Virus record (IMG/VR): IMGVR_UViG_3300048589_001082
Coordinates: 36,465-100,464 of that record
Length of the DNA stretch: 64,000 bases
Strand: one strand, 5' to 3'
From: a virus
The notes under the pieces are model-generated. The model was not told where the DNA came from. It ran no database searches and saw nothing but the letters and a program-made list of their open reading frames with translations. How positions within the stretch are numbered: the stretch's first letter is position 1; every line of letters starts with the position of its first letter. Position numbers and translations under genes: made by a program. Below are positions 3,833-59,469 of the stretch, piece by piece.

Positions 3833-4462
3833 CTACTCCTCTTCGTCGGTCGCGGGCGTCCTGTCCCACTCGGCCGCGGTGATGGTCACGTCTGTGGGGT
3901 ACGCTTCGGTGTAGAAGCCGGTCTTGGCCGGCGTGGGGCGCGGCTCCTCAGTTGCCGTCGCCTCGCGTCCCATGGCCGGCCACGTTCCCGTGTGCAGCGC
4001 CTTCAGCCACGGCTCCCAGTCACCGCCCGACCATTCGGGTGTAACGGTGGCCCTGGCCTCGGCCGGCCGGAACCCGCCGTAGACCTGAAGCTCGCGCTCT
4101 CGCGCCCGCGCCGCGGCCAGCTCGGCCGCCAGTTGCCCTTCCAGTTCGTCGGCGCGTTTGTTGGCCCGCTGCAACTCGTCCATCAGGTAGTCGATGACCC
4201 GCAGCAGCAGCGGCGCGGTGGCCTCGTCGGCCGCGCGGGCCGGGTCGGGCGCGCGGGCCGGGTCGGGCGCGTCATCCTCGTCGTAGTCGTCATAGTCGTC
4301 CTGGTCGATGCGGGCGACCGGCCCCGCTTCGGTCAGCATGGCTTCGAAGGCGTACCGCCGCCCGTCGAGTTCGATCTCGGCGTTGTACGGGCGGCCGACT
4401 TCCAGACCGCCGCTGGTCTGGATGGTAATCTCACGAACAAGGGGGCGAGCAGTCTTAATCAT
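3833..4462 (-). CDS. hypothetical protein with coiled coil and DPARA repeat
   Basis: A 209-residue protein starting at 4462 behind GAGGAA; the start overlaps the upstream stop by 8 bp. The N-terminus repeats the beta pattern EITIQTSGGL seen in the neighbouring gene. A low-complexity stretch of Asp/Tyr and a doubled DPARAPDPARA unit follow, and then a helix (ELQRANKRADELEGQL) likely to form a coiled coil. Unknown function. Confidence 0.78.
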   Translation of the reverse strand: MIKTARPLVREITIQTSGGLEVGRPYNAEIELDGRRYAFEAMLTEAGPVARIDQDDYDDYDEDDAPDPARAPDPARAADEATAPLLLRVIDYLMDELQRANKRADELEGQLAAELAAARARERELQVYGGFRPAEARATVTPEWSGGDWEPWLKALHTGTWPAMGREATATEEPRPTPAKTGFYTEAYPTDVTITAAEWDRTPATDEEE

Positions 4463-17708: not shown

Positions 17709-18068
17709 TCACGAGGCGCGGATTTCCCGCGTCTCGAAAAAGCCCTCCAGCTCCGGGTACTCGCGCATGAGCAACCGGGCGTAGTGGGCGGTGAAGTCGT
17801 TGTTGATGCGGAAGTCGTCGCCGCGCGTCTGCACCTGGTACTGGTAGCGCAAGACCTCCACCAGCGCCTTGATGCCGTAGCGCGTCCGGCCTTGCCGCCG
17901 CAGGGCCAGGGCCATGTCCGCCAGCAGCCGGGCCACGTGGGGGTTGGCCTCGTGGAACGCCTCGAAGCGTTCGGCAATGGTCATCTCGCGCCGGTAGTCC
18001 GGTTCGACCACGGCCGGGAACAGCGACAGTTGAGTAGCGGTTACTTGAGTCGCTTGCGCTTGCATCAC
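17709..18068 (-). CDS. conserved phage protein with N-terminal clamp-binding-like peptide
   Basis: A 119-residue protein. The stretch from MTIAERFEAFHEANPHVARL through YGIKALVEVLRYQY and DDFRINNDFTAHYARLLM matches a conserved phage protein family I know only as uncharacterised. The pentapeptide QLSLF near residue 14 is the consensus for docking on the bacterial beta sliding clamp. A link to replication is therefore likely (inference). Confidence 0.8.
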   Translation of the reverse strand: MMQAQATQVTATQLSLFPAVVEPDYRREMTIAERFEAFHEANPHVARLLADMALALRRQGRTRYGIKALVEVLRYQYQVQTRGDDFRINNDFTAHYARLLMREYPELEGFFETREIRAS

Positions 18069-21292: not shown

Positions 21293-24200
21293 CTACCCGA
21301 ACAGCGCCAGTTGCCGCGCCGGGCCGGATGGGGGCGACGGGCGGTGCGGCGCTTCCGGGGCCGGGGCGGGCGGGGACGGCGAGGGCGTCGGCGTCGGGCG
21401 GCGGCCGTCGGCGAAGCGCGGGCGGTCGCCCGACGCGCCCGCCGACAGCTTGTGGTAGATGGCCTGACCGACCGACATGGCCGCCAGGGCGGTGCTCTCG
21501 TTGTCCCCCACGCCGGCCGCCAGGAGCGCCGAGGTCACGTCCAGCCCGTCGGCCTGCCGCGCGGCGGCGACCTTGTGCCCCAGCAGCGCGAACTGCGTTT
21601 CCTGGGTCGTCGCGCCGTAGTAGGGCACGTAGACCCGACACTCGGCCGTCTGGCCCGGCCGGTGGATGCGGCCGTTGGCCTGGGTGTAGGTGACGGAGGA
21701 GCAGTTGGGGTTCTGGAACCAGACGGCGGTTGAGAAGTAGACCAGGTTGTTCAGCCCCGTCTCGACCGCCTCCGGGTTGACGATGAGCACCCGCCGGCCG
21801 CGGCGGATGACCTCGCGGTTGATCCACTCCATGCGCTTGCCGGCCGCGACCTTGTCGGCCAGGAGCAGCGTCGCCGTGCCCGCGCCGAAGCGGGCCTCCA
21901 CCAGCCGCAGGACGCGCGCGGCCAGACCGCTGCGGGTGTTGACCACGAAGACGATGCAGCGCCGCCCCTCGGCCAACTCGGCCGAGAGCGTCTCCAGAAG
22001 CCACGCCTCCTTGGCCGCCGTCTCCCCGGCCGGGCGCGGCTCGGCCGTCGCCACCAGCCCGCCGCCGATCGAGGCCGGGTAGCGAATCTCGTAACGCCGG
22101 CCGCCGCCCTCGGTGTCGGCGTTGCCGGTGTCGGCGTGGGCGCGGTCGAGGTAGGTCGGCATCTGGGCCATCTGTCCCCACAGCAACCCGGCGGCCGGCG
22201 ACTGCGCCCGCAGGTCGTCCATGATCTGCGTCACCAGCCTCTCGCGCAGGCGGCCGTACTCGGCCCGCACCGGCCCGTCGGGCGCGACCGCCTCGCCAAT
22301 CTCCACCAGCGGCGGCAGCTCCTCGACCATGTCCGACTTCTGGAGGAGGATAGCCGAGGGCAGCATGTGGCGCAGGGTAAAGAGCGGCAGCACGCCCGGC
22401 GCTTGCCCGATCTTCCGCAGCTTGCGGGCCGCGCCGGAGTCAACCACCCGGTCGCTCATGGCCCCGTAGCGGTTGTACCAGTCGATCTCCTCTTCGTCGG
22501 GGTCAATGCGCACCTTGCGGTAGCCGTAGCGGTTGACGAACGCCTCCATCTCGTCGCGGCCGAACTCGTCCCGGAAGCGGCGCGAGAGCGCCCACATGTT
22601 CATAAACAGCGACGAGGCGTAACCGTTGTTGGACGTGCCGGTCAAGACCAGCGTCGGCCGCCCCAGACCCGTCAGGCGATGGGCGGCCCGCTCCTGGGCC
22701 GATCCGTCGGTCGAGTACTCGTGGGCCTCGTCCAACACCAGCAGGTCGAACAGCCCCGGCGCATGGCGGCTAATGTAGGTCGCCAGCGGGTAGCGGCGCG
22801 GCGACGGCTCGGCCTGGTACAGCCGCTCGCCGCACGGCTCGCCCCGTTGCCACTCCCCCTCCCCTACCAGCGCCTCCAAGAGCGCCACGGCCGCCGCCGG
22901 GCTGCCCAGGGGAACGGCGGCGGCGTTGTAGCTGCCGGCCTTCACCGGGCGGCCGCCCGACCACTCGTAGGCCGACGTCTGCCAGGCGTTGTCACCGGCC
23001 GTCCACGTCCCGGCGCGCTGGGCGGCCAGCTTCTCCAGGTAGCGCAACACGCTCGCCCGGTTGGTCGGGTCAACCCGCTCGCCCCAGCGCGCCAGCGCCG
23101 CCGTCGCCCCTTCCGGGCCACAGCCGACCAGGAGGTGCAGCGCCGCGTCGCGCACCGGGCGGGCGGTATAGGCGTCGCTATCTCGACTGTCGGCGGCGTG
23201 CATCAGGCCATCGACCATGCCGATAACGGCCTTGTCCCGGCCGGGCCAGGCTGTCGCGTCCACGGCCCATAGCGCCAGGCCCAGGCGTTCGACGGCCGCT
23301 TTGGCCGCCGACCACTCCCCGGCCGCGCAGTGGGCCATCGCCCCGGCGTAGACCCAGGCGGCGATCTCGCGGGCGGCCCGCGCCCGGCTGTTCCACACCG
23401 CCTGCCGGGCGTCGGCCACGTCGGCCGGGTCGGCCGCGGCGTAGCGGGCGGCCCACTTGCGGCGCTGGGCCGCGACCATCCGCCCCCGCGCCAGGTGGGG
23501 CAGGTCGGGGTTCTCCGGCGTGACCGGCGCGAGGGCCAGGGCCAGCCGCTCGGCCCAGCGGGCGGCGTCCGACGCGGGCCGCGTCTCGCGGTGGTCGCAC
23601 ACCAGCCGCCCGGCGGCGACCTCGGCCGCCGTGGCCGCAACCGTCGCGCCGCAGCGCGGGCAGCGACCGGCGGCGCGGCCGTCGCCCCAGGGGTGTCCCA
23701 GCTTGGCGTACTCGCGCGACAGCAGCAGCAGCGTCAGCCCGTCGCCCGGCTGCCCGGTCGGCGGCGCGTCGGGCAGCGCCAGGGCCGCGTCCACGTCGGT
23801 GACGCGCTCCAGGACGACCACCCGCGCCCCCGGCAGGCACTTGGCCGCCTCGGCCGCCCACGACGCCACCAGATGGGGCGGGCACACGACCAAGACCCGG
23901 CGCACCGGGCGGGCGCGGCCTCGGCCGCCCAGTTGGGCCACCGTCCGGGCGTAGTGGGCCGGGGAGAGGGCCGCGGCCACACCGAAGGCGATGAGCGTCT
24001 TGCCCGTGCCGACCTCGCCCAGCACGAAGGGGTGCTCCCCGGCGAAGGGGGCGTCTTCGGCCAGGATGACCTTCAGCGCCGCGGCGATGCCGTGGGCCTG
24101 ATACGGAAAGGGCACGAGGCCCAGCGGCGGCAACTCCGGCAGCGCGTCGGGATCGGCCGGGTCGTGGAGCGGCGGGCACTGCCGCCGCATGAGGGCCGCC

Positions 24201-25426
24201 AGCGACAGCCCGTAGTGCTCCAGGAGGTCGGCGGCGTTGAACTCCGCCACCACGTCCGCCCCCGTCGCCGTGGCCCCGTCGGCCAGATCGTGGTACGTCC
24301 AGGTACGCATGTCGAGAATGGAGATGCTCAGGCGCGGCTGCTGCACCGCCACCTGCGAGGTGACGCGGCCTTCCTTGTCGGTCTTCTCCTCGATGACCCG
24401 GTACTCCTTGTTGAACACCCCCTTGACCATCAGGGGCGGCAGACCGCCGGCGGGGTCATCGGGCGGGATGCGGTGGCCGTTGACCAACCCCGCCGCGAGG
24501 GCCACGGCCACGTGGGCCGGGCGCGGCGGCATAACCACCGGGAAGCGGTGGCTGATGAGATCGTCCAGGCCCGTCTCCAGCCCCAGGCCGCGCACCGGGG
24601 CCAGGCGGTCGGCCCGGCCTTCCATGAGCGGCCGGGCGGCCTCGTAGAGCGCCGTCACGTCCACCGGGTTGAGCCGCCAGCCGTCCAGCGCCCCAATGCC
24701 CGCGCCTTCGCCCAGGGCAACGCGGGGTGACGCGGCGTCGAGCGAGACCAGCGCGTCGGGATGGGCGGCCCAGTCGCGCACCCGCGCCTCGGCCGCCGGG
24801 TCGGGGAAGCGGCGCGGCGTGGCCCGGCGGCGGCCGATGAGAACCACCTGCCGGAACGCCTCGTACTCCCCCGGCGGGAAGCGGAAGCAGTCCAGCGCTT
24901 CGTACTCGGCCGTCAGGTAGGCCGCCGACGCGGCCAGGGCGTAGTGGGGGACGATGTAGACCAGCCAGCCCGCGCCCGGCCGCAGGGCGGGCGTGAAGCG
25001 GGCCAGAAACCGGTGCTCCAGACGGCCGGTCTCGCGGTCGATGTCGTAGGGCGGGTTCAGGTACAGCACGTCCGCACCGGGCTTGTCCCACGACACCTGG
25101 AAGGCGTCGCCGTGGAGGGTGCGGGCGTCGGCCGTCCACACCTGCTCGACGCCGAGGACGCGGCGGCGCAGCGCGGCGGCCCGCTCCGCCTCCAGTTCCA
25201 CGGTGTAGTACTGGGCGTTGTCGGCACCGGCGCGCGGCAGAAGCGTCTCGCCCAGCGTCGTCACCGCCTCGCCGTCTCCGGCGCAGGGGTCGAGAAAAGC
25301 GTAGGTGGTGTACCGGCCGCCGCGCGGGCGGTAGGGTAGCGGCGCGAACAGGGCCGCGATCTGCTCGACCACGGATACAGGGGTCTTGTAGTAGCCGCCG
25401 ACGGCGACTGATTCCGGCCTAGCCAT
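21293..25426 (-). CDS. DUF6094-type methyltransferase fused to SNF2/DEAH helicase
   Basis: A 1377-residue two-enzyme protein. The N-terminal half follows the DUF6094 pattern: GGYYKTPVSVV, FLDPCAGDG (44-52, SAM site), LYLNPPYD (121-128, catalytic NPPY), then FRFPPGEYEAFRQVVLIG. The C-terminal half is a superfamily 2 helicase: GEVGTGKTL near 472, a Cys zinc site (CPRCGATV), VLDEAHEYS near 897, LTGTSNNG, and GRIHRPGQ near 1255. The last residues are QLALFG, a sliding-clamp docking peptide. Similar fusions occur on plasmids and phages and may modify or protect incoming DNA (compare P1 DarB; inference). Confidence 0.88.
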   Translation of the reverse strand: MARPESVAVGGYYKTPVSVVEQIAALFAPLPYRPRGGRYTTYAFLDPCAGDGEAVTTLGETLLPRAGADNAQYYTVELEAERAAALRRRVLGVEQVWTADARTLHGDAFQVSWDKPGADVLYLNPPYDIDRETGRLEHRFLARFTPALRPGAGWLVYIVPHYALAASAAYLTAEYEALDCFRFPPGEYEAFRQVVLIGRRRATPRRFPDPAAEARVRDWAAHPDALVSLDAASPRVALGEGAGIGALDGWRLNPVDVTALYEAARPLMEGRADRLAPVRGLGLETGLDDLISHRFPVVMPPRPAHVAVALAAGLVNGHRIPPDDPAGGLPPLMVKGVFNKEYRVIEEKTDKEGRVTSQVAVQQPRLSISILDMRTWTYHDLADGATATGADVVAEFNAADLLEHYGLSLAALMRRQCPPLHDPADPDALPELPPLGLVPFPYQAHGIAAALKVILAEDAPFAGEHPFVLGEVGTGKTLIAFGVAAALSPAHYARTVAQLGGRGRARPVRRVLVVCPPHLVASWAAEAAKCLPGARVVVLERVTDVDAALALPDAPPTGQPGDGLTLLLLSREYAKLGHPWGDGRAAGRCPRCGATVAATAAEVAAGRLVCDHRETRPASDAARWAERLALALAPVTPENPDLPHLARGRMVAAQRRKWAARYAAADPADVADARQAVWNSRARAAREIAAWVYAGAMAHCAAGEWSAAKAAVERLGLALWAVDATAWPGRDKAVIGMVDGLMHAADSRDSDAYTARPVRDAALHLLVGCGPEGATAALARWGERVDPTNRASVLRYLEKLAAQRAGTWTAGDNAWQTSAYEWSGGRPVKAGSYNAAAVPLGSPAAAVALLEALVGEGEWQRGEPCGERLYQAEPSPRRYPLATYISRHAPGLFDLLVLDEAHEYSTDGSAQERAAHRLTGLGRPTLVLTGTSNNGYASSLFMNMWALSRRFRDEFGRDEMEAFVNRYGYRKVRIDPDEEEIDWYNRYGAMSDRVVDSGAARKLRKIGQAPGVLPLFTLRHMLPSAILLQKSDMVEELPPLVEIGEAVAPDGPVRAEYGRLRERLVTQIMDDLRAQSPAAGLLWGQMAQMPTYLDRAHADTGNADTEGGGRRYEIRYPASIGGGLVATAEPRPAGETAAKEAWLLETLSAELAEGRRCIVFVVNTRSGLAARVLRLVEARFGAGTATLLLADKVAAGKRMEWINREVIRRGRRVLIVNPEAVETGLNNLVYFSTAVWFQNPNCSSVTYTQANGRIHRPGQTAECRVYVPYYGATTQETQFALLGHKVAAARQADGLDVTSALLAAGVGDNESTALAAMSVGQAIYHKLSAGASGDRPRFADGRRPTPTPSPSPPAPAPEAPHRPSPPSGPARQLALFG

Positions 25427-38345: not shown

Positions 38346-39588
38346 CTTGTCTTTCTCCCGACGGCCGCGCGGCCGTCTTCGCTCCCAACAGTTCCTCAAA
38401 CAACACCTGCGCCCGGCGCAGACGCGCCGCGCTGGCATCCCCCCGCCCCACCAGCGGCGACGCCTCCGGCGCGTGGAAGCGCAGCGCCGCGCCCAGCACC
38501 CCGTTCAATAGGCCGCGCTCGACGCGGCTGAGCGACCGGCCCTCGGCCAGCCGCGCCCAGACGCGCGCCAGGCGCGGGAAGCGGTGGCTGACCGCGCGCC
38601 AGTCGGCCCAGGTCAATGCCCCCCGCGTCTGAATGGGCAGGGCGTAGGCGCGGGCCAGATGCGGCACGAGGCCGCGCTGCACGATGACCCGGTGCCGCGT
38701 CACGACACCGGCGTCGGAGATACGGCCGCCGGTCATCCGGGCCACCTGGGGCGACGGGATGCCCACCGCGACCGCCAGCACGAGAAAGGCGTCCAGCCCC
38801 ACCGTGCCGCGCCGGGCGAGATGGCCGTCGGCGATGCGGTAGACGCGGAAGCCGGGTCGGGTCGCCTCCGAGCGTAGCACCCGCCAGTTGTCCCACTTGA
38901 CCGCCGGCAGCCAGCCGCGGCGGATGTAGCGGTTGATGTCGATGTGGCTCACCCCGTGGTAGGCGGCGACCTCGCCCGGCGTCCACCAGGCGTCTGGCTG
39001 CCCGTCGGCGCACGTCCAGCGCTCACGCCGGCGCGCGACCAGGCGCCGCAGCTTCTCGTCGGTGATGCGCTCCGGCCGCTCGACCGAACGCCAGAAGTAG
39101 ACCCAGTTGGCGGGGTTGGTCGCCCAGGCGTAGAACGCCGCCCGGCGCGTCCGCCACATGAGCCGGTCGGACGACAGCGGGACCCGCTCGGCCCTTATCT
39201 CCCCGCGCTCGATGAGCTTGGCGACGGAGTGCTCGTCTATGCCCATCGACACGGCCATCTGCGTGCCCGTCACGAACTCCGGGTGTTTGGAGGCGGACGG
39301 TAGGCCGCGCCTGGTCTGCTGCGTCTCGACCGCCGAGGCCGTGCGCCCCAGACGCGCCGCCAGCTCGTCCACGCCCAGCACGCCCGACCACCGCGCCAGA
39401 TACGCCGCGTCGGCCGCCGTCCAGAGGTTGGCCGCGCCGACGGTCGGCCGCGCTGCGGTCGATCCGGCCGCGGCGATGGCCCGTGCCGCGCCGAACTGCC
39501 ACGCCGCGAGAACGGGATCGCGCCCGGCCTCCAGCGCCGCGTCGAGCACCACCCCGTCAAGCAGGGCGTCGAGGTCGAAGTCACTCAT
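38338..39588 (-). CDS. Myb/SANT-like multi-domain DNA-binding protein, paralogue A
   Basis: A 416-residue paralogue of the protein at 35447. Shared blocks include FDLDALLDGVVLDAALEAGR, LWTAADAAYLARWSGVLGVD, a TQMAVSMGIDEHSVAKLIER-type HTH, WWTPGEVAAYHGVSHIDINR, and TWADWRAVSHRFPRLARVWA. The start overlaps the ParB stop (ATGA), so this copy is coupled to the partition-like ParB. Confidence 0.82.
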   Translation of the reverse strand: MSDFDLDALLDGVVLDAALEAGRDPVLAAWQFGAARAIAAAGSTAARPTVGAANLWTAADAAYLARWSGVLGVDELAARLGRTASAVETQQTRRGLPSASKHPEFVTGTQMAVSMGIDEHSVAKLIERGEIRAERVPLSSDRLMWRTRRAAFYAWATNPANWVYFWRSVERPERITDEKLRRLVARRRERWTCADGQPDAWWTPGEVAAYHGVSHIDINRYIRRGWLPAVKWDNWRVLRSEATRPGFRVYRIADGHLARRGTVGLDAFLVLAVAVGIPSPQVARMTGGRISDAGVVTRHRVIVQRGLVPHLARAYALPIQTRGALTWADWRAVSHRFPRLARVWARLAEGRSLSRVERGLLNGVLGAALRFHAPEASPLVGRGDASAARLRRAQVLFEELLGAKTAARPSGERQGE

Positions 39589-40649
39589 ACGGCCGTCTCC
39601 TCCGCCTGCGCCTTCACCGCTCCCACCAACCGCCCCAACAGCGCGGCTCCCTGGCACAGCTCGCACACCCTGGGGATGGGCGGGCCGTCGCGCCGGGCGC
39701 AGGCGGCGCACGTCTCGGCCGCCGCTCGCTCGACGATCTCCCACGCCGGGATGACGTCGGCCCCGGCCGGGCGCACGGCGCACCCCCGGCACATGGCCTC
39801 GGCCGCCGCGCCGATGGTCGCCGTCACCGCCCGGCGCGCGCCCGCGCCGTAGGCCACCAGCGGCACAGGATGGGCCACTGTGCCGTTGCGGCCGGGCGAC
39901 CCGCCCGGCCCCCCTACCCCATTGGCTCCGGGCACGGCCGCAGCGCGCCCGGCGTGGCGCCGGCGGCCCTCCTCCAGCGCCTCGGCCTTGCGGGCGATCT
40001 CCTCGGCCGTCCGGTCGCACGCCCGCAGCGACGCCTGCAACCCCAGCCCGTGCCGGGCCAACTTCTCGGCCAGCGGCACGCGGGCCTCCGGCGGCAGCAC
40101 GTATAGCTTCTCGGCCAGACGGCCGTCCTTGGACAGATGGCCCAGGGCCACGAGGCTCTGAATCTCCGGCTCCAGCTTCAGCCACGCCAGCCGGCCGTTG
40201 ATGGTCGGCAGCGACTTGCCCGTCTCGCGGGCGATGCGCAGCCGCGCCCAGCCGTGGTCGATGAGACCCTGGTAGACGCGGGCCTCGTCGATGGGGTTGA
40301 GGTCTTCGCGGTGGAGGTTCTCCAGCGCCTGGCGCACCAGCCGTTCATCGGCCGCGCGCGCCGGGGCGACGACGGCCGGGATGGTTTCCCGCCCGGCCAA
40401 CTTCGACGCCCGCCAGCGCCGCTCGCCGTGGTGAATGCGGTAGCGGCCGTCGGGCGTCTCTTCAACCTCGATGGGCTGGATGACGCCGTGCTGCCGGATG
40501 CTCTCGGCCAACGCCGCCAGCGCCGCCTCATCGAAGTGGGTGCGCGGCTGGGCCGGGTCGCGGTCGATGAGCGCGACGGGGATATGGAGGGCCTCAATGG
40601 CCCCTTCGGCCTCGATGGCCTGCGGCTGAATTGGTTGTGTGTTACTCAT
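39585..40649 (-). CDS. ParB-family protein with Cys-rich C-terminus
   Basis: A 354-residue ParB/RepB/Spo0J protein. N-terminal domain: RDPAQPRTHFDEAALAALAE, SIRQHGVIQPIEV and YRIHHGERRWRASKLAGRE (CTP-binding box). The central HTH (LRIARETGKSLPTINGRLAW) should bind parS-like DNA. The C-terminus has several CxxC pairs (CRGC, CAAC, CELC), unlike chromosomal ParB, suggesting a metal-bound dimer or partner site. There is no parA next to it; the window's ParA is near 59000. Confidence 0.87.
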   Translation of the reverse strand: MSNTQPIQPQAIEAEGAIEALHIPVALIDRDPAQPRTHFDEAALAALAESIRQHGVIQPIEVEETPDGRYRIHHGERRWRASKLAGRETIPAVVAPARAADERLVRQALENLHREDLNPIDEARVYQGLIDHGWARLRIARETGKSLPTINGRLAWLKLEPEIQSLVALGHLSKDGRLAEKLYVLPPEARVPLAEKLARHGLGLQASLRACDRTAEEIARKAEALEEGRRRHAGRAAAVPGANGVGGPGGSPGRNGTVAHPVPLVAYGAGARRAVTATIGAAAEAMCRGCAVRPAGADVIPAWEIVERAAAETCAACARRDGPPIPRVCELCQGAALLGRLVGAVKAQAEETAV

Positions 40650-41335
40650 GATGTTTGTCCCTGGTCGGCCGCGACTTCTTCTAGCCCGTCCACCTCGATC
40701 ATCCAGTCCGTGACTGCCCTTCGCCCACGGTCGCGCACCCGGCGCACGTGCAGGTGCAGTGGGCCGTCCGCGCCCTTGTCAAGCGAGACGAACCAGGACA
40801 CTGAGTCGCATCCGGCGGCTACTGGCTCGCGCCAATACAGACTCCACAGCGGAGTGTGTTCGGTGCTGCGCCACGCCAAATCGCGCTCCGGGGTAAAGCT
40901 CTTATCCACCAGCACCGGAACGCCTCCGAAGCGTGTGACGGTGAGTGAGGCCGAAAGCGCCGCGCCCTCACTCTGCTCATCGAGGTGTGTCAGCCTCTTA
41001 ATCAGATCGCCAATTAGCGCATGGATGCCCATGAACGCATCGGCTACGCGCTCGATGGGTTCATGGGGCGCCCGACTCTCACCTCGCGATGGTGCCGGCT
41101 GTTCTCCTGCGCTAAGCTCCAGTCCGGCGGCCGAATCGCTCTGCCGGCTCCAGGTTTCGCCGTCAGTAGTGAAAATGGCTACCGGGGCAGTGCCGCGATA
41201 GAACACAGCGGCATCAAGGTGTTTACCGTTCTCGTGCCGGATATATCGAATATCCAATGGTCTCTCGTACCCTGCTGCGACCAACCGTTCTCTCAGTTGG
41301 CGCTGCAACGCTATGTCGCTTTGGCGTGCCATCAT
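40646..41335 (-). CDS. hypothetical protein coupled to ParB
   Basis: A 229-residue protein with ATG at 41335 (a second ATG follows directly). It has a helical start (SDIALQRQLRERLVAAGYER), a central helical part and a beta-rich C-terminus ending near DGLEEVAAD. It overlaps the parB start by 4 bp. No family recognised; it could be a ParB regulator by position only. Confidence 0.74.
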   Translation of the reverse strand: MMARQSDIALQRQLRERLVAAGYERPLDIRYIRHENGKHLDAAVFYRGTAPVAIFTTDGETWSRQSDSAAGLELSAGEQPAPSRGESRAPHEPIERVADAFMGIHALIGDLIKRLTHLDEQSEGAALSASLTVTRFGGVPVLVDKSFTPERDLAWRSTEHTPLWSLYWREPVAAGCDSVSWFVSLDKGADGPLHLHVRRVRDRGRRAVTDWMIEVDGLEEVAADQGQTS

Positions 41336-41357
41336 TCCCTCGCGTCTCTCTAAATTC

Positions 41358-41969
41358 CTAAAACAACGCCAGTTGCACCGGCACGCCGCGGCCGGCAATG
41401 GCTTCTTTCGGCACAGACAGGAACAGCACCAGTGGCTCGGCTTCAACCGTCTCGGATACAGTCGCCACGGCCGCCGTCAGCGTCCGCGCCGCCCCGTCCG
41501 GCTCGATCACCGCCAGTTTGTGACCCGCAGCCAGCAGCCGGGCGAAGTAGTTCTCGCCGGCGTGCGCGGGAAAGCCGGTCATGGGCATACGCTGCCCCTG
41601 CCCCAACGGCCGGCTGGTCAATACCACGTCTAGCGCCGCGGCCGTCAGGATGGCGTCGTCGTTGAACGTCTCGTAGAAGTCGCCTAACCGGACGAAGCAC
41701 AGCGCCTCGCGCTGCTCCGCCTTGACGCGGATATGGGTTTCCACTGCCCAGGACAGCGTACCGGGCACGGTCTGGGTGACGAGGGCGACGCTCTCCCCCT
41801 GCCCCTCGGCCTGAGTTGCGGCCTCCTCGGCCGCCTTCCGCCGCGCCGCGTGGAAGGCCACGAACGGCCCGCTGTGGCCCGACGGCCGCTTGCACCAGCC
41901 GCCGGCCTTTGCCCCGCAGGAGGGGCAAGCGACGGCCATGTAGGGATGTTTGAAATTGTCACTAGTCAT
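41358..41969 (-). CDS. stand-alone MutS domain I with zinc knuckle and clamp-binding tail
   Basis: A 203-residue protein. An N-terminal zinc-type motif (ACPSCGAKAGGWCKR with later His residues) is followed by a MutS mismatch-recognition domain: LCFVRLGDFYETFNDDAILT, with the intercalating F98 and E100 of the Phe-X-Glu motif kept, then RMPMTGFPAHAGENYFARLL and KLAVIEPDG. No MutS connector, clamp or ATPase domains follow. The protein ends in QLALF, a consensus sliding-clamp binder. Mismatch or lesion sensing, or inhibition of host repair, are plausible roles. Confidence 0.85.
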   Translation of the reverse strand: MTSDNFKHPYMAVACPSCGAKAGGWCKRPSGHSGPFVAFHAARRKAAEEAATQAEGQGESVALVTQTVPGTLSWAVETHIRVKAEQREALCFVRLGDFYETFNDDAILTAAALDVVLTSRPLGQGQRMPMTGFPAHAGENYFARLLAAGHKLAVIEPDGAARTLTAAVATVSETVEAEPLVLFLSVPKEAIAGRGVPVQLALF

Positions 41970-42005
41970 TGATTTCTCCGTTGTCGGTTGTCGGCCTTGT
42001 GACTG

Positions 42006-42338
42006 TTACCACTCTACCCAGAACGCGGCCTGACGGATACCGTCAACAACGCGCCCGAAGTGCCTGAGGTAGTGGTTGACGATCTCCTGTTGCCACGGCT
42101 CCGCATCCTCCAGCCAATCCTCCTTTATGGTGATGTAGCAACCGTTATGAACCTGCTCCATGTCGAGGACAAAGTGCCAGAAGTCCCGGTAGGGAGCGGT
42201 TGCGTCATGGCCGCCATCGTCATACCTGCGGGCATAGTCACGCTCGTCATAGCCGTACTTGACTTCGAGCCAGTCCCGGCACTCGTTGTAGTCGTAAGCC
42301 CGTCTGGTTTTGGGCCGGGGCTTTTTCAACTCACTCAT
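42006..42338 (-). CDS. conserved phage hypothetical protein
   Basis: A 110-residue protein that matches a conserved phage family by pattern: AYDYNECRDWLEVKYGYDER, YRDFWHFVLDMEQVHNGCYI and a VDGIRQAAFWVEW end. The family is uncharacterised as far as I know. The start lies 8 bp inside the MazG-like gene's end. Confidence 0.78.
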   Translation of the reverse strand: MSELKKPRPKTRRAYDYNECRDWLEVKYGYDERDYARRYDDGGHDATAPYRDFWHFVLDMEQVHNGCYITIKEDWLEDAEPWQQEIVNHYLRHFGRVVDGIRQAAFWVEW

Positions 42339-43335
42339 GACCCACCTCCAAACCCGTCGAATTCGACGGGTTTACCCAGCCGTGCCCACCGGCCAGCTTC
42401 CCGGCCAGATGAGCGAACAGCCCGTCGAACGTCACCCCGTAGAGCGACGCCAAGACGGCCAGGTAGTAGGCCACGTCGGCCAGTTCATCAATGACGGCCG
42501 CGTTGTCGCGCACCGTGCCCGGCTTGAAAAGTTGCTTCTTGATAAGGTCGGCCACCTCGCCTGCCTCGCCAACCAGGCCCAGCACGGCGGGAAGGAGCTG
42601 CGCGGTGAAGGAGCCGCCGGCCGCGCCCCACGTCGCCAGCACTTGCCGCTGGTAGGCGTCAGGTGCGGCGTCCGGCGTGGCCCATGACGGCGGGCTGACC
42701 TCCTCCACGATGTCCCATAGCGTGCTGCCCTTCACCGTCAGGCCGCGCTTCGGGCCGGGTGGGCCGATAAGCTCCAGAAACAACTGGCCGTGCTTCAGGC
42801 GCGGGCTAAGCGCCGGGCCGGCGAAGCCCTTGACCCAACGGCCGTCGCCGGGCCGAACGTCGAGCGCCGCTTCCATCGCCCTGACCAATGCTCCATCATG
42901 CGTCCACGCCCGGTAGGTCGAGGCGAGGCGCACCGGGCGGCCGTCGGCCGTCTCGCCGCGCAACGTCACCCGGAAGAGGCGGGGTGGCAGACAATCCTGC
43001 GAAGGCGCGGGGCCGCCGGCGGCTAACGGCAACTCCGGCGCGCCGGTCAGCCGGGCCACGCGCACTGGGTCGGCCTCGGTCACGACATCGCTCAATTGCG
43101 CGTGGCCGGTTACGAACAGGCCACGTTCGCACAGGTCGAAGACCAGCGAACGCGGGCCGGGATAGCCGTCCCCCTCCGGGTAGCGCCACCCAATGGCGCT
43201 CCAGTCAGGGTAGTCGAACTCGGCCGCCACGGCCTTCTTCACCGCCAGCTCCTCGTTGCGGGCCTGCACGGTCTCGTTGACCTCGCGCGGCTTGTTTTCG
43301 TAGTAGCCCTTGATACCCACGTCGAACCATCTCAT
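42331..43335 (-). CDS. fusion protein with C-terminal MazG-like NTP pyrophosphatase domain
   Basis: A 334-residue protein. The C-terminal 110 residues are a MazG/dUTPase-like all-alpha pyrophosphatase: LGLVGEAGEVADLIKKQLF (E-x-x-E metal site) and IDELADVAYYLAVLASLYGV (the D-E-L-x-D box). The first 220 residues are a beta-rich domain with two Cys residues and RGLFVTG / RLASTYRAWTHDGALVRA segments that I do not recognise. Likely removes modified or signalling nucleotides. Confidence 0.85.
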   Translation of the reverse strand: MRWFDVGIKGYYENKPREVNETVQARNEELAVKKAVAAEFDYPDWSAIGWRYPEGDGYPGPRSLVFDLCERGLFVTGHAQLSDVVTEADPVRVARLTGAPELPLAAGGPAPSQDCLPPRLFRVTLRGETADGRPVRLASTYRAWTHDGALVRAMEAALDVRPGDGRWVKGFAGPALSPRLKHGQLFLELIGPPGPKRGLTVKGSTLWDIVEEVSPPSWATPDAAPDAYQRQVLATWGAAGGSFTAQLLPAVLGLVGEAGEVADLIKKQLFKPGTVRDNAAVIDELADVAYYLAVLASLYGVTFDGLFAHLAGKLAGGHGWVNPSNSTGLEVGHE

Positions 43336-44678: not shown

Positions 44679-46475
44679 TCATTGCAGCGTCGCTATCACG
44701 CGACGCATGATCATCTTCGCCACGGGCGGGGTGACGGCATTGCCGAACTGCCTCACCTGGTCGCGCTTGTTGCCCAGCACCCGATAAGATGCCGGGAAGG
44801 CCATTCCACGGCCGACCTCGTGCGGTTGCAGCATCCTGAAGCCGCAGTCCTCGACGGCCGGCGGCGTGGACGGGAAGACCAGCCCGGCGTTGTTCTGCGT
44901 GTGCAGCGTCAACAGCGGCTCGGTCGTGGCGTGCGGCGGGCCGTCGCCATTGGCGTAACCGACGTAGAACGGCATGGGCGTGACCAGCGCGTGGTGATCC
45001 GACGCGGTAATGGCCCCGGCCGGCTCGACGGCCGACCGCGCGTAGCCGGGCGAGTAGTTGACCGCCAGGAACGGCATGGGCATGACGACGGCGTGCCGGT
45101 CAGTGGCCGTGATGGTCGGAACCGGCTCGACGGTCACGTCGCTATCCCCACCCTGGCCGTAGTAGCTGGTCAGGAACGGCGTCAGCACGCCGAAGCTCTC
45201 CGTGGCCGTCTGCGTCGGCAAGGGAGAAGTCACGGCGCGGGCCTCGTCGCGGTTCTGACGGCCGCCCAGGGCCATGAGCATGGGCATCAGCAGCCCGACG
45301 TGGTTCCCGGCCGCGGCGAACGTCGGCAGTGGGCCATCCGTCGCTGGCTCGCTGCCGCCGTTGTTCCTGAGCGTCACGATCTGCGGCATGAGCACGCCGT
45401 ACTTGTTGGCCGTGGTCTGCGTCCCGGCCGCCTCCGTCACCGGGACGGTGCGGTCGTCGTAGTAGTTGGTGCTGACCAGTTGTGGCGCGACCATGGCGAC
45501 CGTTTGCTGCGCGGTCTGGGTCATAAGCGGATGGGCCAGCATCGGCCGCGGCGACCGCTCGTCATCGCTATAGGCCATGTCCATCACCAGCCAGGTGTTG
45601 CCGTACTTGGCCAGTCCCTTGCGGATGCGCTCCATCGTGCGCTCTTTGAGCGGCCTGTCCCGGTCGCCGATGCGCTCGGCCGGCAACGACCAGTCGATGG
45701 CGTTCCAGGCGGCGAAGTGGTAGGGCGTGACCTCGGCCGCGCAGCGCGGGCAACGGTAGACGTACTGCTGCTTGTAGCGCCCCCACTTACGACCAGGCTT
45801 CTTCCACGACTGCACCGCCTCCGCGTCGGCCGCGCATCCCGCGCACCACGCCCGCGGCCGAAACTCCAGATCGGGGGCGAGGTTACCCTTCTTCCAGAAG
45901 ACGATGTAAATGCGATCCCGGCTCTGTGGGGCGAAGTCGTGGGCGTCACGCACGGCCGCCGGGTCGAGTTGGGCGAACATCGAGTTGAAGTAAACCTCCT
46001 TATGGTCGTACCCCAACAGGGTCATGGCGTGCAGCCAGGCATCGTATAGACGCCAGTGACGCACCTCGATGACGTTCTCGACAATGATCACTTCGTAGTC
46101 GTGGTACTCGGCAAAACGCGGCACGTCAAACATTGTCACCCGGCTGCGCTCGTCGGCCGGGTCGATGACGGCCGCGCCGAACAACTCGCGCTGGGCGTCG
46201 TCGCGGCGCTTTTTCCCCTTGGCCACCGTGTGATTGGTGCATTCCGGCGAGGCCCACAAGACCGTTGTCGAGCGGTAGCGGCGCGGGTCGGTCGAGGACA
46301 CGTCTACGCAGTCATGGGCCGTATCCGGGAAGTTGGCGTTGTGGCTCTCGACCGCCAGCCGCCAGTGGTTCAGCGCCAGGGTGATCTCCACGTCATCGGA
46401 GGCGTGATGCATCCCCAGTGACGAGCCGCCCGCGCCGCAGAAGAGATCGGTGACAGACAGGGTGCTTTTGGTCAT
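44679..46475 (-). CDS. C5-cytosine DNA methyltransferase with repeated target-recognition region
   Basis: A roughly 598-residue enzyme; ATG codons at 46478 and 46475 follow GAGGAGA and an in-frame GTG lies at 46490. Motif I: TDLFCGAGGSSLGM; motif IV with catalytic Cys in the variant WASPECTNHT; motif VI: VENV; motif VIII: QSRDRIYIVF; motif X: QFGNAVTPPVA. Two CxxC pairs (CAGC, CPRC) form a zinc site before the target region. That region contains about six degenerate repeats of the type PLPTxTAxxxxGVL. It methylates cytosine at an unknown sequence. Confidence 0.9.
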   Translation of the reverse strand: MTKSTLSVTDLFCGAGGSSLGMHHASDDVEITLALNHWRLAVESHNANFPDTAHDCVDVSSTDPRRYRSTTVLWASPECTNHTVAKGKKRRDDAQRELFGAAVIDPADERSRVTMFDVPRFAEYHDYEVIIVENVIEVRHWRLYDAWLHAMTLLGYDHKEVYFNSMFAQLDPAAVRDAHDFAPQSRDRIYIVFWKKGNLAPDLEFRPRAWCAGCAADAEAVQSWKKPGRKWGRYKQQYVYRCPRCAAEVTPYHFAAWNAIDWSLPAERIGDRDRPLKERTMERIRKGLAKYGNTWLVMDMAYSDDERSPRPMLAHPLMTQTAQQTVAMVAPQLVSTNYYDDRTVPVTEAAGTQTTANKYGVLMPQIVTLRNNGGSEPATDGPLPTFAAAGNHVGLLMPMLMALGGRQNRDEARAVTSPLPTQTATESFGVLTPFLTSYYGQGGDSDVTVEPVPTITATDRHAVVMPMPFLAVNYSPGYARSAVEPAGAITASDHHALVTPMPFYVGYANGDGPPHATTEPLLTLHTQNNAGLVFPSTPPAVEDCGFRMLQPHEVGRGMAFPASYRVLGNKRDQVRQFGNAVTPPVAKMIMRRVIATLQ

Positions 46476-46491
46476 CATTCTCCTCATCACA

Positions 46492-58168: not shown

Positions 58169-58507
58169 CTACTTCCGTGGCGAAGCCAGCCGCGTGGTGC
58201 TGACCTCGATCGTGTCCGGGTTCTCCCCATTCTCCAGCGCCAGGATGCCGCGATCCACCAGCCAGCGCACCAGATCGGCTTCCGGCACGCGATGTTGCCG
58301 CGCCAACTCGTGGATGTAGTCAAGTTGTTCCGGGCGAAAGGTGAACTGCCGGCGGATGTACTTCCCGGCCCGCAGTGACTTTTTAACCGTTGCCCGCGCC
58401 GCTGCTCCTGGATGCAACTGCGCCGTGGGGTTGCTGAAGCTAGTGGTCTTCTTGCCGCCCTTCGGCCGTGCCGGTTCCTCCAGGTCGTCCAGAAAGGTAT
58501 CGCTCAT
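58169..58507 (-). CDS. ribbon-helix-helix partner of ParA
   Basis: A 112-residue protein, starting with ATGA overlap on parA. The N-terminus is disordered and basic; residues 55-95 (RRQFTFRPEQLDYIHELARQ, VPEADLVRWLVDRGILALE) form a ribbon-helix-helix. It has the layout of ParG-type centromere-binding proteins. With ParA it should partition the element by binding repeated sites near the operon. Confidence 0.82.
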   Translation of the reverse strand: MSDTFLDDLEEPARPKGGKKTTSFSNPTAQLHPGAAARATVKKSLRAGKYIRRQFTFRPEQLDYIHELARQHRVPEADLVRWLVDRGILALENGENPDTIEVSTTRLASPRK

Positions 58508-59373
58508 CGTGCCCCTCCGGCTACGCGCTCAATCAACGCCTCATAGGCCACCCGCGCCGGGTGGGTTGGTTCGGCATATTCCAGCAACGTACGGCCGCCC
58601 ACGCCAGACGACTCCTTAACCACGACCGACTGAGGGATGGCGTCGGCCACGCGCGGCCCATATGCCGCGTGTAAGTTGTCCATCATAGCCCGATCCATCA
58701 CCTGGCGCCCAATAGCCATCGTTGGCACAACCCACGCCAGCCGCGCTTTGGCCCCGGCGCGGTTGTAGGCGACCAGGTCGTTGGTGTGCTGGACGCAACC
58801 CACAACCGACAGGTGATCCGGCTTGGTCGGCACGACCACCTCGTCGGCCACCCGGTAGACGGCCGACTTGAGCGTGTCGAGTTTGGGCGGAGTGTCGATG
58901 ACGATGTAGGCCACCCGTCCCAGCAGGGGGGCCAGGTAGTGGCTCAGCACGTCGTCGAGCGGCGGTCGTTCGTCGTCGCCCGGCCGTCGCTGTCGCTGGA
59001 AGTCCAGCACCAGCAACTCCTCGGCCACGCGCTCCAGCCGGCGGCTGGCCGGCACGAGATACAGGTTCGGTCGTGGCAGTCCGTCGGCCGCCCGATCCAA
59101 CGGGACGATGGTCTGCTTGAGCGACCGCTCCCCGGTCAACAGAAAGCTGATGCACGCCCCGGCCTTGTTTGTCTCGGCGTCGTACACCAGCTCGCGCACG
59201 CCGAAGTAGTCAGCCAGGTTGCCCTGCGGGTCGAGATCGACAGCGACCACGCGCCCCTTCTCGCTGCCGCCGGGCATCTGTTTGCGGGACAGTCCGTGGG
59301 CCAGCACGCCGGCCGTCGTTGTCTTGCCCACGCCACCCTTCATATTGGCGACTACAATCACCTTCGTTTCCAT
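58504..59373 (-). CDS. parA: ParA-family partition ATPase
   Basis: A 289-residue protein starting at 59373 behind GGAGG. The deviant Walker A KGGVGKTTTAG follows VIVVANM at the N-terminus; then VVAVDLDPQGNLADYFG and a YIVIDTPPKLDTLKSAVYR Walker B region. It lacks an N-terminal DNA-binding extension, as in small plasmid ParAs (type Ib). Partner gene immediately downstream. Its promoter carries two palindromic operators, which suggests repression by the ParG-like partner. Confidence 0.93.
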   Translation of the reverse strand: METKVIVVANMKGGVGKTTTAGVLAHGLSRKQMPGGSEKGRVVAVDLDPQGNLADYFGVRELVYDAETNKAGACISFLLTGERSLKQTIVPLDRAADGLPRPNLYLVPASRRLERVAEELLVLDFQRQRRPGDDERPPLDDVLSHYLAPLLGRVAYIVIDTPPKLDTLKSAVYRVADEVVVPTKPDHLSVVGCVQHTNDLVAYNRAGAKARLAWVVPTMAIGRQVMDRAMMDNLHAAYGPRVADAIPQSVVVKESSGVGGRTLLEYAEPTHPARVAYEALIERVAGGAR

Positions 59374-59417
59374 CGTTCCTCCGCTCCTGTTGAATACAAA
59401 TGAACCTCCAATGTACC

Positions 59418-59469
59418 CACAGTGAACCACTGTGAATACAATTGTATTCAATCATAGCAGAATCGTCAA
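59418..59469 (-). promoter_or_regulatory. parA promoter with two palindromic operators
   Basis: Minus strand TTGACG (59464-59469), 17 bp, TACAAT (59441-59446). GAATACAATTGTATTC (59434-59449) is a perfect palindrome that contains the -10. CACAGTG-AAC-CACTGTG (59418-59434) covers the start of transcription. A further half-site GAATACAA is at 59392. Typical of a self-repressed partition operon, and these repeats may double as the centromere. Confidence 0.8.

Follow-up and report, generated by a model that had tools for sequence, protein, structure and literature searches.

A short phage protein with MutS domain I between a zinc finger and a C-terminal sliding-clamp-type motif

What might a phage do with the mismatch-sensing part of MutS once the rest of the protein is gone? 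In MutS, the Phe of a Phe-x-Glu motif inserts at the mismatch and the Glu forms a hydrogen bond, the protein is brought to DNA via a clamp-binding motif, and an ATP-driven change recruits MutL (PMC8744996). One gene of the window (the whole 64,000-nucleotide stretch of viral DNA analysed here) encodes a protein of 203 amino acids in which the first of these features is found without the ATPase, and the question of its role was approached through its domains, its relatives and its neighbours.

Domain content and gene row

The features of the gene, of its product and of the surrounding row are collected in Table 1. The earlier note on this DNA had described a MutS domain I with Phe98 and Glu100, followed by none of the later MutS domains, preceded by a fused zinc-type motif and closed by QLALF, and our analysis bore out each element of this description. 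The MutS_I match scored 70.8 bits in Pfam against a cut-off of 20.6, and the N-terminal match scored 38.2 bits against a cut-off of 24, which places the front part in the family Phage_zn_bind_8. Pfam found no further domain in the protein, and MutS domains II-V (connector, core/lever, clamp and ABC ATPase) were not detected. The zinc finger carries the pattern CxxC...C...RPSGH...H, in which C15, C18, C26, H32 and H40 were invariant among the relatives (alignment A6). MutS_I occurs as a single copy in the whole virus record.

Table 1. Coordinates of the features considered (window positions)
Feature	Position	Strand	Basis or remark
MazG-like C-terminal domain protein	42331..43335	-	MazG E 3.4e-5; first gene of the row considered
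110-aa gene, no known domain	42006..42338	-	directly upstream of the MutS_I gene, 36-base gap
Ribosome-binding site GGAG	41976..41979	-	6 bases before ATG at 41969; read from sequence
Zinc finger / MutS domain I / clamp-motif gene	41358..41969	-	203 aa; ORF, Pfam, AF2, Foldseek
Zinc finger Phage_zn_bind_8, residues 12-56	41802..41936	-	PF24623 E 1.2e-9
MutS domain I, residues 80-158	41496..41732	-	PF01624 E 1.4e-19; PDB sequence match; Foldseek
Phe98-Tyr99-Glu100, Phe-x-Glu mismatch recognition motif	41670..41678	-	aligned to E. coli MutS
C-terminal QLALF, residues 199-203, predicted beta sliding-clamp binding motif	41361..41375	-	consensus PMC4549789; zinc-finger relatives
Gene without known domain, between the MutS_I gene and parB	40646..41335	-	
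ParB-like protein	39585..40649	-	ParB_N E 1.2e-25, HTH_ParB 1.8e-10
1377-aa methyltransferase/helicase-like protein ending QLALFG	21293..25426	-	DUF6094 methyltransferase E 7e-13

By sequence, the solved structures nearest to the middle of the protein were MutS proteins. Residues 77-163 aligned to residues 15-101 of E. coli MutS, with R-L-G-D-F98-Y-E100 opposite R-M-G-D-F36-Y-E38. An AlphaFold2 model, built with the window and collected-locus sequences as the only input, was confident for residues ~74-157 (pLDDT about 85-97), with weak predictions at the zinc finger and tail. When the model of residues 74-157 was searched with Foldseek, the top PDB matches were MutS crystal structures, and it superposed on MutS domain I with an rmsd of 1.3-1.5 Å over about 80 columns and a probability of 1.00; the structural comparison with MutS domain I that the earlier note had named as a check on its reading thus came out in its favour. 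The Phe and Glu of the motif were invariant in an alignment of 32 rows (A5), a conservation that was partly built in by the search, since GDFYE belonged to the retrieval pattern. The motif was also kept in two mobile proteins retrieved by tblastn rather than by that pattern (L004 and L006), and it was lost or altered in two others: the stand-alone MutS_I-like protein of a gut phage (L098:3800-4297) reads NGESCELY, and a helicase polyprotein of a cyanobacterial plasmid (L092:97-7833) reads GDFYTAY, with Thr in place of Glu.

The virus record is a genome fragment of 100,464 bases, and its left part encodes a tape-measure protein and portal/head proteins, so that it belongs to a tailed phage. The gene lies in a tightly spaced minus-strand row with parB two genes downstream; 22 bases separate the stop codon of the MutS_I gene from the intervening gene, whose end shares 4 bases with the beginning of parB. 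A C5-cytosine methylase of 603 aa (window 44679-46490, minus strand) has a partial Pfam match followed by repeated-looking segments.

A single-sequence search of IMG/VR with the MutS_I gene returned one other contig (L002), in which the gene is identical. Three genes including it (window 40646-42338, L002 6188-7880) are 100% identical in DNA, ParB is 95.6% identical and part of the MazG-like gene 98%, and most blocks farther out are 76-87% identical. Judged from these identities, the identical block with diverged flanks looks like a recent exchange, although a shared sample or an assembly effect may also account for it. The earlier note had called the zinc-MutS-clamp layout new, and we found it elsewhere solely in this relative, so the layout appears limited so far to the window phage and one relative. 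Among 84,980 genomes, the close relatives of the protein were canonical MutS only, and the search turned up no host or prophage copy of the gene.

The C-terminal motif and the zinc-finger relatives

QLxLF is an established beta-clamp binding consensus that is usually C-terminal (PMC4549789), and the protein has, in sequence, a QLALF as its literal C-terminus. Shuffling of the 203-aa protein gave a probability of 1.5e-5 for QLxLF exactly at the end. In all collected loci, Q[LM]xLF formed the C-terminus of 5 of 15 zinc-finger ORFs and of 0 of 4,542 other ORFs; the five include the window protein and two related plasmid proteins, and therefore amount to about four independent cases. The relatives in this comparison were retrieved through the zinc finger only, and since proteins found in this way share a QLxLF-type end, the tail is not a product of chance; the possibility of a chance pentamer was rejected on the shuffling and on the enrichment.

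Among these relatives, the zinc-finger proteins of the Roseobacter plasmid pTB1 (L007) and the Phaeobacter plasmid pP78_f (L181) both end in QPEQLALF, and those of two viral contigs end in AKQLSLF (L187) and GPDQMDLF (L190). Plasmids and other viruses thus carry proteins in which this zinc finger is combined with a C-terminal QLxLF but not with MutS_I. The proteins of L007, L181 and L187 resemble the window protein in the front Phage_zn_bind_8 finger and the clamp-like last five residues, but their linker contains no MutS domain I. As far as these sequences tell, the tail goes with the zinc finger, and the simplest history would be a gain of MutS_I in the linker of a zinc-finger protein that already ended in a clamp motif. 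A search of INPHARED phages with the plasmid zinc-finger protein gave no match. On Rhodobacterales plasmids, the small zinc-finger proteins ending in QPEQLALF (L007:3983-4246 and L181:986-1243) are encoded downstream of ParB, as is one that has no such tail (L179:980-1231).

Three of the genes called in the window phage contain Q-[LMF]-x-L-F. Its 1377-aa methyltransferase/helicase-like protein (Table 1) is, from the sequence of its end, a probable second clamp client of the same phage. A 119-aa protein of phrog_13625, which has no assigned function, carries QLSLF near its N-terminus (window 17709-18068, minus strand). Clamp-like motifs were also seen in other mobile MutS_I proteins (QFSLFD in L004, QLSLFD in L006 and QLDMF in L131); of the 30 full-length MutS ORFs in the collected loci, at least 17 have one near their end. 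In this respect the 203-aa protein keeps both ends of MutS and nothing between them.

The protein shares with canonical MutS the fold of domain I and the F-x-E motif, and its QLALF may correspond to the clamp-binding motif that MutS has toward the C-terminus, but it measures 203 aa against about 800-900 aa, has a zinc finger in front and lacks domains II-V, the ATPase included. It resembles, at most, the sensing end of MutS.

MutS domain I on other mobile elements

In 2017, the polyvalent proteins of Bacteroidetes and Firmicutes were stated to be the one known case of MutS-I outside MutS; ArdC-N accompanies it in about 80% of these cases, and a role on single-stranded DNA was proposed (Iyer et al. 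2017, PMC5512222). The earlier note had mentioned MutS domain I pieces on mobile proteins of Firmicutes, in agreement with that study, which names Bacteroidetes as well. The window protein is likewise a case of MutS-I outside MutS on a mobile element. The polyvalent proteins, however, are multidomain and mostly carry ArdC-N, whereas the phage protein is small, combines a zinc finger with a clamp motif, and has no ArdC-N, protease or catalytic domain. It is therefore neither a MutS, as domains II-V are absent, nor a polyvalent protein, as the other domains are absent.

When IMG/VR was scanned for MutS_I in general, most matches were host MutS genes at the edges of prophages. An alignment-based scan restricted to the GFP-type domain I motif also returned MutS at prophage edges, together with a set of stand-alone proteins. 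At least ten other viral contigs (L107, L115, L117, L119, L121, L125, L128, L130, L132 and L133) encode MutS_I as a stand-alone protein, of about 86-190 aa and in most cases without a clamp motif. In L128 the 97-aa gene (3995-4288) lies between the genes for the terminase large subunit and an SPP1-type portal, and in L107 a terminase gene is near; these neighbours identify both contigs as phages. The IMG/VR scan also gave MutS_I behind an unassigned N-terminal domain (L110, L116 and L118) and in giant polyvalent-type proteins (L108, L109, L120, L123, L124 and L131). In five viral contigs it was C-terminal to ParB_N and HTH_ParB (L101:2168-4267, L122:3101-4291, L126:3-1049, L127:3071-4288 and L167:3107-4303); in the literature searched we found no mention of ParB with this domain.

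Two further arrangements place MutS_I next to a clamp-like motif. A human-gut phage protein (L004:2449-3441) consists of PcfK, QFSLFDQF and MutS_I, and the strawberry-notch helicase of a cyanobacterial plasmid (L006:1-6807) has MutS_I followed by QLSLF, as in the order of the window protein, but is a methylase/helicase polyprotein of about 2,260 aa. In BFVD there were more models of short phage proteins with a 'MutS domain I'; A0A8S5PL02, A0A8S5L9N2 and A0A8S5PPT8 (74-153 aa, automatic names only) matched our model through MutS domain I.

Phages thus carry MutS domain I, by itself or fused to ParB, as a wider class and not as a one-off, and these mini-MutS proteins have barely been described. 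For Bacteroidota we rejected the possibility that a stand-alone MutS_I gene is a normal part of the chromosome, as 148 genomes had full-length MutS only, with the one exception of a genome that had MutS matches at contig ends. A tree of 59 domains (85 residues, long branches) required 8 label changes for mobile MutS_I and was compatible with one origin as well as with several; the branch of the window domain was long, at 1.97 changes per site.

Possible roles of the protein

The reading that we place first, with a probability of about 0.4, takes the protein for a mismatch or distortion binder that is tethered to the clamp, cannot signal repair and shields phage DNA from host MutS. The zinc finger and QLALF would bring it to the host sliding clamp on phage DNA that has just been copied, where MutS domain I could read mismatches, loops and other distortions, with Phe98 inserted and Glu100 in contact with the base. 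Lacking domains II-V of MutS, the protein would form no ATP sliding clamp and could not call MutL. With the sensor and a probable clamp tether kept and the ATPase gone, it would therefore, if it binds mismatches, only sit on such sites, and it is for this reason that passive shielding was ranked first. Such occupancy would most likely protect phage heteroduplexes, which could arise from replication errors or from recombination between diverged phages, against host MutS and against nicking by MutL. The analysis shows the domain content, the fold, the conserved motif, a tail that is not random and parB close downstream; that the protein binds the clamp, that its domain I recognises mismatches by itself and that shielding follows are inferences. 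The roles suggested in the earlier note, namely finding mismatches without calling repair, shielding DNA from host MutS or acting in recombination, would all be compatible with this picture. Several points speak against shielding. In MutS, domain I belongs to a dimer in which domain IV holds the DNA as well, and by itself it may bind weakly; the changed motifs of L098 and L092 mean that mismatch reading need not be a role shared by the whole set; most other stand-alone proteins have no clamp motif; and the function of the tail may be tied to the zinc finger and not to domain I.

Should the mini-MutS shield mismatches, it would offer a concrete mechanism by which phages escape the recombination barrier of mismatch repair and form mosaics, and a portable tool for lowering mismatch repair without host mutation. 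We found, in the literature searched, no phage anti-mismatch-repair protein, no phage protein acting on MutS, and no description of one that blocks or redirects MutS at the mismatch itself. A broader claim, that in several unrelated phage groups MutS domain I proteins devoid of the ATPase counteract mismatch repair or protect heteroduplexes, is doubtful at this stage. If it were true, the window protein would be steered by its zinc finger and the host sliding clamp and others by fusion to ParB, and phages could locally switch off mismatch rejection and recombine with diverged relatives.

Second to shielding, and somewhat less probable, is that the protein binds distorted or single-stranded DNA in a general way, coating or recognising single-stranded or branched DNA early in infection in the service of nuclease protection or the start of replication, and unconnected to mismatch repair. 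The comparable role proposed for MutS-I beside ArdC-N, the mobile copies with a changed F-x-E, and neighbour genes for DNA handling (ParB, methylases and a SNF2 helicase) are consistent with this; the retention of F-x-E in the window protein and in the two proteins retrieved by tblastn argues against it, as does the absence of ArdC-N and protease domains from the window protein. Even in a case where no mismatch is read, MutS domain I would still be a reusable reader of DNA distortion well beyond MutS, the ParB fusions included.

The position of parB points to a third and rather unlikely explanation, in which the protein is an adaptor that delivers or anchors a ParB CTPase, and with it the phage genome, at intermediates of replication or recombination and so would serve the partition or replication of a phage able to persist as a plasmid. 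The ParB-MutS_I fusions would fit such a role, as would a ddrB-ParB protein with MutS_I in L131, a ParB gene near the stand-alone MutS_I of L130, the zinc-finger relatives downstream of ParB on Rhodobacterales plasmids (L007, L178, L179 and L181) and, as a sequence reading, a ParA-like sequence at window 58504-59451. ParB-like genes, however, are common in phages and plasmids, a mismatch motif is not needed for partition, and in the stretch read no ParB homologue was detected beside the stand-alone MutS_I of L107, L117, L125 and L128.

Compared with the shielding reading and both of these alternatives, it is very improbable that the protein is a relic of host MutS captured by recombination and now without function: a long branch in a tree compatible with more than one origin would fit this, and the sole close copy, being identical in DNA, yields no dN/dS or selection signal, but the ORF is intact and has a ribosome-binding site in a tight gene row, the fold and F-x-E were retained despite the long branch, the clamp-type motif forms the exact C-terminus, and many other phage contigs keep the domain as a stand-alone protein.
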